This document shows, in pieces, positions 35,942 to 59,757 of a stretch of 64,000 nt of DNA. The translations under genes were made by a program, and so were the position numbers. The stretch spans positions 1 through 64,000 of the forward strand of contig NZ_JNKR01000006.1 in NCBI RefSeq assembly GCF_000702905.1, in the 5' to 3' direction. Position 1 is the first letter of the stretch. Every line of letters starts with the position of its first letter. The stretch comes from Mitsuokella jalaludinii DSM 13811. GTDB lineage: Bacteria > Bacillota > Negativicutes > Selenomonadales > Selenomonadaceae. Under the pieces are notes generated by a model. It saw nothing but the letters and a program-made list of their open reading frames with translations, did no database searches and had not been told where the DNA came from.

Positions 35942-35960
35942 CTTTCACAGAAGAGAATAG

Positions 35961-46702: not shown

Positions 46703-46888
46703 GGGACGGGGTTGGCCAACACTGCGCGATGAGCCCCTGCTAAACCGATTTTTTGCCTCAGAATCTCAATCCTTGCCAAAGAGCTAAACGCGCGTTGCTT
46801 GGACGACGCTCTTTGGCAAGGGCGGGATGGCAAAAAATCGGTTCTTCACGCAGGGCCTCAACGCTCCGCTTCTGGCCAGTCCCGTCCC
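46703..46888 (+). repeat. Structured 3'-UTR element, long form, copy 1
   Basis: An imperfect hairpin of 186 nt. Outer helix: gggacggg (46703-46710) with cccgtccc (46881-46888), then tggcca with tggcca. Internal-loop strands acactgcgc (46719-46727) and gctccgctt (46863-46871) follow. The second helix pairs the cctgc that ends at 46740 with gcagg at 46850-46854. Third helix: 46745-46757 with 46829-46841 (13 bp, perfect). Apical helix: 46771-46784 with 46808-46821 (14 bp, perfect). It is homologous to 58742-58926, with compensatory changes in the helices. It begins 24 nt after the hemL stop. Small reading frames inside it are treated as spurious. Confidence 0.8.
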
Positions 46889-46955: not shown

Positions 46956-47039
46956 GTGGGATTTGTGCGACCTCAATGGTCAATCGTGACATGGCGGCAG
47001 GGTGGCAGGGCCCTGCTGCCCTGCTGCCGATTCACTGTG

Positions 47040-58208: not shown

Positions 58209-58625
58209 ATGATGAAGAATATCCTGGTACCGGTCGATGGTTCGGAAGGTTCGGACCGTGCTGTAACGGAAGCGATTTCCATTGCAGAGGCTTGTGAAGC
58301 GAAGCTCAACTTCCTCTACGTCGCGAACATCAACCAGCTCGCAATCAATGCCTGCCTGTCAGACGCCATCCTCGAGGCCGTGACGAAGGCCGGCAACGTC
58401 GTGCTCGACCGCGCGATGGAGATGGTGCCGTCGGGCATCGAGAAGGAAGCGTTCTCGGAGACGGGCTCGCCAGCCGTCGTCATCCTCGACTTCGCGACGA
58501 GCAATGACATGGACCTCATCGTCATGGGCAGCCGCGGCCTCGGTGTCGTCAAGGGCGTGCTGCTCGGCAGTGTCAGCCAGTACATCGTAGAGCAGTCGAA
58601 GTGCCCGGTACTGGTCGTGAAGTAA
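58209..58625 (+). CDS. Universal stress protein, UspA family (second)
   Basis: A 138-aa UspA domain with NILVPVDGSEGSDRAVTEA, GSPAVVILDFATSNDMDLIV and an intact ATP site GSRGLGVVKGVLLGSVSQYI. It differs enough from its neighbour to be an old duplication. AAGGGGG lies upstream of the ATG. Behind the stop lies the densest group of structured elements in the window (58659-59135). Confidence 0.92.
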   Translation: MMKNILVPVDGSEGSDRAVTEAISIAEACEAKLNFLYVANINQLAINACLSDAILEAVTKAGNVVLDRAMEMVPSGIEKEAFSETGSPAVVILDFATSNDMDLIVMGSRGLGVVKGVLLGSVSQYIVEQSKCPVLVVK

Positions 58626-58658
58626 GGTTTCATTCGTGTCCTTTTGTGGAAATGAGCC

Positions 58659-58730
58659 GTCGGCCATAGATGTCCATTGCTCCGCACAGCAAGCTGAAGC
58701 TGCGCCATGGACATCTATGGCCGACTTTTT
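58659..58730 (+). repeat. Structured 3'-UTR element, short form, copy 1 (terminator-like)
   Basis: A perfect 19-bp stem (58659-58677 with 58707-58725) encloses a 29-nt loop with cagcaagctgaagctgcgc. Six T follow the stem, so it can act as an intrinsic terminator for the Usp genes. It starts 33 nt after the stop codon. The loop matches the minus-strand loop of 59067-59135, while the stems are unrelated in sequence. Confidence 0.8.
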
Positions 58731-58741
58731 TCTTAAAGGAC

Positions 58742-58926
58742 GGGGAAGGACTGCCCAACGCTGCGCATGACCAGCTGCTGAACCTGTTTTTTGCCTTGGA
58801 ATCAATCCTTACCAAAGAGCTGAACGCGCTGCGCTTGAACGACGCTCTTTGGCAAGGAGTCTGGTCGGCAAAAAACAGGTTCTTGACGCAGCTGGTCAAA
58901 GCTCCGCTTATGGGCAGTCCTTCCCC
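58742..58926 (+). repeat. Structured 3'-UTR element, long form, copy 2
   Basis: Outer helix 58742-58757 with 58911-58926 (16 bp, perfect). Loop strands are acgctgcgc (58758-58766) and gctccgctta (58901-58910). Second helix 58768-58778 with 58888-58898 (11 bp, perfect). Third helix 58782-58795 with 58867-58880 (14 bp, perfect). Apical helix 58807-58820 with 58844-58857 (one mismatch). Same architecture as 46703-46888, with different but complementary helix sequences. Confidence 0.8.
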
Positions 58927-58954
58927 TGCTTTCGTGGGAAACAAGTTGATAGAG

Positions 58955-59000
58955 AAAATGCCAGGTATCTGGAAGATGTATCTTCGATGCCTGGCATTTT
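58955..59000 (+). terminator. Intrinsic terminator after the element cluster
   Basis: aaaatgccagg and cctggcatttt are perfect 11-bp arms around a 24-nt loop with secondary pairing. Confidence 0.7.
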
Positions 59001-59066
59001 GTATTGTGCTGACTGTATGACTGGCAGTAGCGGGATGAGAGTTCTTGCTGAACTGATGGGAGTGAA

Positions 59067-59135
59067 GTCATCTGGGGGTATCCATAAGTGGAGCTTCAGC
59101 CTGCTGCGCGGAACGTTGGATACCCCCCAGATGAC
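59067..59135 (-). repeat. Structured 3'-UTR element, short form, copy 2
   Basis: An 18-bp stem (59067-59084 with 59117-59135, one bulged base) encloses a 32-nt loop. Read on the minus strand the loop contains cgcagcaggctgaagctcc, matching the short element at 58659. It begins 25 nt after the nrdG stop, on the nrdG strand. The stem sequence is unrelated to that of the other short copy. Confidence 0.78.
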
Positions 59136-59160
59136 GCCGCGCTTCTGCGAATTCGAGAAA

Positions 59161-59673
59161 TCAATCTTCGTATAGCAGTACGATCTTTCCCTGCTGGCGC
59201 GTGGCGTTCATGTCGATGACGCGCTGGTTGGAGGAGCCGCGGAAATGGAGGGTGAGGTCGCGCAGTTCCTCGACGTACGCACCGTCGACGAGTACGTCGA
59301 CTTCCGCGAGCAGATCATCTGTCGCCTTGTCGTGGCGCGCCTGGAGTTCTTCGAGCGTGTAGCCCGAGTAGCTCCAGATGTCGAGGCCTGCCGCGTGGAT
59401 CTCTCTGGCGAGTTCGGCGAGCGGTGCGCACTGCAGGAAGGGCTCGCCGCCGCTGAACGTCACGCCCGTCAGCAGCGGGTTCAGGCGTATCTTCTGCAGG
59501 AGCTCCGCGAGCGTTTCCTCGTGGCCGCCCTCGAGCGGCTGCGTCTCCGGGTTCTGGCAGTTCGGGCAGCGGCGCTTGCAACCCTGCACGAAGATCGTGA
59601 AGCGGAAGCCGTCGCCGTCGACAATCGAGTCTTCGACGAGGCCAGCGACGTGCAGCGTATCATCTAGTGACAT
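59161..59673 (-). CDS. nrdG: Anaerobic ribonucleoside-triphosphate reductase activating protein
   Basis: A 170-aa radical SAM activase that generates the glycyl radical of class III ribonucleotide reductase. FVQGCKRRCPNCQNPETQ has the cluster cysteines 32, 36 and 39, and VTFSGGEPFLQ is the SAM-binding motif. ATG 59673 follows GGAAAGGACG. The gene directly upstream encodes a stand-alone NrdD-type glycyl-radical domain; a full-length NrdD is not in the window. A hairpin at 59712 lies between the two genes. Confidence 0.93.
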   Translation of the reverse strand: MSLDDTLHVAGLVEDSIVDGDGFRFTIFVQGCKRRCPNCQNPETQPLEGGHEETLAELLQKIRLNPLLTGVTFSGGEPFLQCAPLAELAREIHAAGLDIWSYSGYTLEELQARHDKATDDLLAEVDVLVDGAYVEELRDLTLHFRGSSNQRVIDMNATRQQGKIVLLYED

Positions 59674-59711
59674 GGTCAATCGTCCTTTCCTTATTGTGGT
59701 CATCCCAATAG

Positions 59712-59744
59712 AAAAGCCGCTGCCGGGGGGAGTGGCAGCGGCTT
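59712..59744 (-). terminator. Intergenic hairpin between the glycyl-radical gene and nrdG
   Basis: On the minus strand aagccgctgcc and ggcagcggctt form an 11-bp stem followed by ttttcta. It may act as a partial terminator (attenuator) lowering nrdG expression relative to the upstream gene. Confidence 0.65.
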
Positions 59745-59757
59745 CTCCTTGCATCAA

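Follow-up and report, generated by a model that had tools for sequence, protein, structure and literature searches.

Elements at the locus

The window, that is, the whole stretch of 64,000 nucleotides that was analysed, corresponds to positions 1-64000 of contig C6 in the 2.41-Mb draft genome of Mitsuokella jalaludinii DSM 13811 (here G000; a second Mitsuokella species is designated G002). The gap that separates a usp-like ORF (58209-58625, +; by-eye name) from an ORF on the opposite strand (59161-59757, -) contains, in this order, a short element, a long element, a hairpin of ordinary type and another short element; a second long element lies elsewhere in the window (Table 1). Apart from the ordinary hairpin, we read these as a degenerate short copy, a good short copy and two long copies of a repeat that resembles MITEs and has a hairpin with a fixed loop. 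Scores derive from the covariance model R1, which was built from 16 long copies only (the window's own included) and applied unfiltered to the short elements of the window, and from R2, a model of the short form built from eight short copies.

Table 1. Repeat elements and related hairpins in the window.
Feature	Position	Strand	Description	Score
Second long element of the window	46703..46888	+	just behind a stop codon	R1 182.1 bits
Bare palindrome	46993..47028		G002 has a further long element here, oppositely oriented; either a remnant or an empty site	
Short element 1, degenerate	58659..58725	+	variable 19-bp stem, conserved loop	R2 75.2 bits
Long element	58742..58926	+	P1/J1/P2/J2/P3/P4/terminal loop	R1 207.7 bits
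Ordinary hairpin, terminator-like by eye	58957..58998		internal control	R1 8.3 bits on either strand
Short element 2	59067..59135	-	stem of 18 bp, one bulged base; conserved loop; lies 3' of ORF 59161-59757 (-)	R2 78.8 bits

An earlier note on this DNA had described the two short hairpins, and both lie where it placed them. The stem of the first is perfect and closes a 29-nt loop, while that of the second is interrupted by one bulged base and closes a 32-nt loop. The 20-nt loop reported to be common to both (CCGCGCAGCARGCTGAAGCT, up to three mismatches) occurs at these two sites only in the window, against 0.02 occurrences expected from shuffles. Their stems had been described as dissimilar, which holds for the stems overall but not for the innermost six bases of the 5' arm, which read TRTCYA in seven of the eight short copies of the genome.

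A T6 tract follows short element 1, which stands behind the usp-like ORF. This CGACTTTTTT behind a gene, together with the plain terminator-like hairpin that represents the ortholog of short element 1 in G002, would suit ordinary transcription terminators. A terminator scan lists short element 1 as well, but one found versus 0.8 expected is no signal. Short element 2 lacks a T tract, nested helices with conserved inner loops would be unexpected in terminators, and 19 copies drawn from 12 class genomes keep the loop; we regard this explanation as very improbable.

A module common to the short and long forms

The edges of the short loop had been likened to those of the long elements, and this resemblance was borne out by R1, which gave the two short elements 32.7 and 33.3 bits on their own strands (19.5 and 9.0 bits on the opposite strands) versus 8.3 bits for the control hairpin. 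It is thus the loop edges, and not merely the presence of a stem, that tie the short to the long form. The edge AAGCTCCRCTTA occurs exactly only at 58899-58910 (in a long copy) and 59085-59096 (in a short copy); with two mismatches, eight occurrences were found versus 6.4 expected, which is not above chance. The degenerate state of short element 1 is apparent from ATTGCTCCGC, which stands in place of the AACG-type edges of the other copies, and the class-wide model R3 (see below) finds 59060-59140 (43.4 bits) and misses 58659-58725.

Alignments and R1 scores agree in showing an outer helix and internal-loop edges common to the two forms, so that the module proposed in the earlier note is supported. 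It had further pictured the short form as a long one whose inner helices were replaced by a cap. The common module stands, but the direction is doubtful, the long form being more likely a short one with added helices. In G005, a genome of a second genus, a long and a short copy have almost identical outer stems, and the short copy is devoid of the inner helices and of part of the 3' loop edge. Judging from its occurrence, the short form is probably the older one, because the short module is found in many families and the long form, for which 16 genomes of other families were covered, has been seen only in that of the window.

Copies, consensus and covariation

The genome carries 18 long copies (R1) and eight short ones (R2); the 30 R1 matches comprise the 18 long copies, seven opposite-strand echoes and five shorts. 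In the filtered genome search (R1, E <= 0.001), five of the eight shorts are listed, neither of those in the window among them, and three of ten full-length shorts in G002. The R2 search did not find the long copies. Short copies are undercounted, as R2 has no match in G005 although the short form is present there.

Sixteen of 17 long loci (L020 was left out) entered the long alignment A1. Its consensus runs from a free P1 through ACGCTSCGC, P2, CTGCTAAA, P3 (with T6-A6) and P4 to the terminal loop AAACGCGCTNCGCTTGRACG, followed by TTCTTNACGCAG, AANGCTCCGCTTA and P1'. Inside its free outer stem, the short consensus reads TRTCYA, AACGCTYCGC, GCAGCARGCTG, AAGCTYCGCTTA and TRGAYA, from which single copies deviate. 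Covariation is seen at 40 of 58 pairs in the 16 long copies (164 double-change cells versus 50 in shuffles) and at 16 of 23 pairs in the eight short copies, and the score of either alignment was reached by none of 500 shuffles. In addition, two tandem arrays of short copies differ by one unit between the species, with three (C3:48675-48937) versus four units in G002 (C6:325743-326121) and two (C2:103451-103634) versus three (G002 C6:713496-713810), and the stem changes in these arrays are compensated. A GAGGCG-like 5' flank was noticed by eye in the Mitsuokella short arrays.

Several Mitsuokella long elements are followed, at a distance of roughly 40-170 nt, by a further nested hairpin type of about 190 nt (TATTTCGCCTGCA...GAAGCCGAAATA), the outer stem of which is variable (L107 from about 1500; also L009, L011, L013, L015, L098, L165, L166, L167 and L097). 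This hairpin includes AGCGGAGCG, which is a J1 motif in reverse complement, and is absent from the R1 search list.

Distribution among relatives

Within the Selenomonadaceae, to which the window belongs, long copies (R1) were found in nine of 25 genomes; none were found in the 16 genomes of other families on which the model was run. Their number is patchy even within the genus (16 in G002, one in G001). Alignments made genus by genus differ in their helices and have related loop motifs, and the copies of G023 appear by eye to split into a type A and a type B.

With R2, weak relatives of the short form were detected in other families. Alignment A5, which took 19 of 25 distant short hits (six were left out) from 12 genomes of the class, has an invariant loop (AA.GCT.C ... 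CT.CG.TT.T) and covariation at 19 of 20 pairs. The loop similarity thus survives the broader alignment. At E <= 0.001, the model built from it, R3, matches 41 of the 300 genomes searched from the Negativicutes (24 of 227 if the count is limited to the better genomes; up to 15 candidates were scored per genome), which disposes of the objection that the short copies are terminators with random loops. In a draw from the phylum at E <= 0.0001, R3 matched two of 299 genomes, at least 10 of which belong to the class; both are Mitsuokella. Patterns of the element were not found in viral contigs, nor did blastn return matches for the long element in plasmids or for 58640-59150 in phages. One exact match of the terminal loop nominally outside the class comes from a metagenome bin (L063, MAG of uncultured Lachnospiraceae RUG12461).

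Mobility and terminal repeats

In G078, the short hairpin is the core of a repeat of about 102 nt with terminal inverted repeats. Pooling of the loci gives 46 near-identical copies, which show 46 different left flanks and as many different right ones. Thirty-nine of the 46 measure 102 nt between the repeat ends, and the end pattern gave 60+60 matches versus none in the control. At the 30 loci read, the same hairpin lies inside the inverted repeat, with a damaged right end at L349; three of them have flanks in common that stem from a repeated block. TATAT borders 36 of the 46 copies on both sides, as a target duplication might, though element ends and a TA-rich target are indistinguishable here. 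No autonomous partner or transposase was found in 12 stretches of this genome, whose paired ends enclose only units of 98-102 nt, alongside a few unpaired single ends. A clear replication-strand bias was not seen either (p 0.16; 98 listed positions, hand count, origin assumed at the contig start). Within C1:35,900-90,000 of this single-contig genome, copies at 35953, 61701 and 87449 are spaced 25,748 bases apart; the former two have long flanks in common and the third has the same short flank as read, as in a repeated block of about 25.7 kb.

A different inverted repeat, of 16 bp, occurs in G005 (23+26 matches, control 0) and encloses three of the eight long copies read, by eye. The same genome contains a 158-nt unit with a short version of the element, the stem of which is nearly that of the long copy. 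In the f6 genomes, yet another repeat surrounds the hairpin, by eye. The hairpin therefore occurs in units with different ends. Around the copies of the window's own genome, an outer terminal repeat outside the stem was found at none of the 18 long and none of the eight short copies, and at one of 16 long copies in G002. Because of this, and because many loci are common to G000 and G002, recent mobility is evident in relatives only.

Arrangement and bare palindromes

Neighbouring elements mostly face each other. Among 104 elements of five genomes, 35 pairs lie within 1 kb, 25 of them convergent, ten tandem and none divergent; the 21 long-long pairs comprise 20 convergent and one tandem, again with no divergent pair (loci common to G000 and G002 enter these counts twice). 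At C6:73,440-73,960 of the window's genome and in the corresponding stretch of G002 (C6:999,900-1,000,500, L158), long elements stand in opposite orientation with nearly the same P1 arm, and the former stretch retains a remnant of an oppositely oriented element.

Intergenic palindromes in such inverted pairs would also be expected if the elements were REP/BIME sequences mobilised by a RAYT (Y1) transposase; PMC8266576 portrays REP/BIME as pairs of inverted copies joined by a variable linker, and intergenic position, inverted pairing and variable linkers are common to both systems. However, PF01797 was unmatched in four of the nine genomes with long elements (G015, G018, G022 and G023, the last of which is 91% complete and had 23 copies read). 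A RAYT/Y1 transposase does not track the elements and was rejected as their mobiliser. Moreover, the stem sequence here is free, the loop is fixed and up to four helices are nested, in contrast to REP/BIME. We therefore consider a REP/BIME system improbable. A conserved GTAG-like tetranucleotide at the foot is a mark of REP/BIME, and what the eye finds in the Mitsuokella short arrays is the GAGGCG-like 5' flank.

According to another scenario, the variable stem is a pre-existing host hairpin and the conserved loop an insertion into its tip. Two loci polymorphic between G000 and G002, with the element in one species and a bare palindrome in the other, agree with this, as does a further individual inverted repeat that surrounds 11 of the 23 G023 copies above the 99% control level. 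Against it, the same analysis gave 0/23 in G017 and 0/18 in G000 (elsewhere 1/16 in G002, 1/6 in G022 and 0/8 in G005, where common flanks raise the control level), and in short arrays the flanks beyond the variable stem are alike, by eye. The hairpin of G002 at the site of short element 1 keeps its GAGSCG-like flank, for which reason we lean towards loss of the tip at this site, at least as likely as an insertion. The stem is copied along with the element in G078 and in six of the eight G005 copies, which weakens the stem as a host target hairpin. We regard this scenario as unlikely.

DNA or RNA

The strong covariation of both forms could also point to a functional structured RNA, for instance a 3'-UTR stabiliser or a processing site borne by the upstream gene's transcript. 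The position of the long elements would fit, the 5' foot lying no more than 50 nt behind the same-strand stop codon in 33 of 55 cases, and so would signs of constraint in place. In eight long ortholog pairs, changed bases amount to 17/410 (4.1%) in the motifs and 52/876 (5.9%) in other paired positions, versus 28/201 (13.9%) at other unpaired positions (Fisher p 4e-5 and 3e-4, respectively); the flanks changed at 33/213 (15.5%, 5') and 242/1148 (21.1%, 3') positions. As motifs and paired bases change less, something keeps stems and motifs in place, which could mean a host function.

Several observations, however, speak against an RNA of the strand shown. If an RNA fold were selected, G-T pairs would presumably be in excess over A-C, yet stem mismatches in 117 copies (99 long and 18 short), counted only where three pairs flank each side, are 29 G-T, 67 A-C and 73 other. 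In the long form, two stretches that recur hold 11 of the G-T and 45 of the 67 A-C mismatches, leaving 18 G-T, 22 A-C and 56 other; the A-C excess in these stretches could stem from a feature of the structure and not be a signal of the strand. In 13 ortholog pairs of G000 and G002 (doubtful pairs excluded), 626 stem pairs are unchanged and 19 doubly changed and still paired, next to single changes to G-T (17), A-C (15) or other mismatches (14) and two other double changes. Such an RNA should also favour one orientation, yet tandem gene gaps contain 25 sense versus 24 antisense long copies, with 30 in convergent and nine in divergent gaps (simple ORF calls of our own; of the 99 copies, 11 at edges were set aside). 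In the window and at 23 other loci, no element matched Rfam at gathering thresholds; a permissive search of 58600-59200 returned three unrelated sub-threshold matches, to models of two microRNAs and one snoRNA, with E values between 1.1 and 3.2. An RNA function of the + strand is thus unsupported by mismatch counts, ortholog changes and tandem-gap orientation alike, and we rate a structured RNA as unlikely.

A probable mobile repeat with a fixed loop

Most likely, the hairpins belong to a mobile repeat of the Negativicutes that is non-coding and MITE-like, a reading in which we have reasonable though not full confidence. The constant part of this repeat is a hairpin in which the stem varies freely in sequence yet stays paired and the loop, AACGCTNCG ... 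CTNCGCTTA, is fixed. A transposase supplied in trans would spread the copies by reading their ends, the folded DNA or both. Every active lineage of copies would thus keep fold and loop, with the letters of the stem drifting in compensated pairs, and the function would reside at the DNA level (as a hairpin or cruciform) rather than in RNA made from the strand shown. More speculatively, the fixed loop may be a portable recognition module that serves several unrelated terminal repeats and guides insertion to the tips of hairpins, those of older copies included, which would give rise to the nested and convergent arrangements. This might proceed via an undescribed structure-reading recombinase or a host factor, with selection through the loop driving the compensated drift of the stem; we put this forward tentatively, as an idea with the balance against it.

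Like bacterial MITEs, the elements are short, multicopy and, in G078, near-identical at different sites and bounded by terminal inverted repeats, and inverted repeats also surround some G005 copies. Unlike MITEs, one fixed-loop hairpin core sits within several different terminal repeats, the stems covary, inverted pairs are formed and a long nested form exists. We know of no loop common to these elements and the ERIC/RU-type repeats. The latter, as presented in PMC2759123, are small mobile intergenic repeats of enterobacteria (103-168 bp) that the authors liken to MITEs; as small mobile intergenic repeats they are comparable to the present elements by description, not by sequence. In the literature searched, including the available sections of PMC8266576, PMC6429828 and PMC8632094, these elements are not described.

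Summed up, with stem letters that are free, pairing and loop that are kept across the class and a nested enlargement in a single family, these repeats offer a natural test of selection that acts on DNA through structure only. They also serve as a warning that covariation by itself is no proof of RNA, and the near-identical copies in strains such as G078 make the mobilising enzyme findable.
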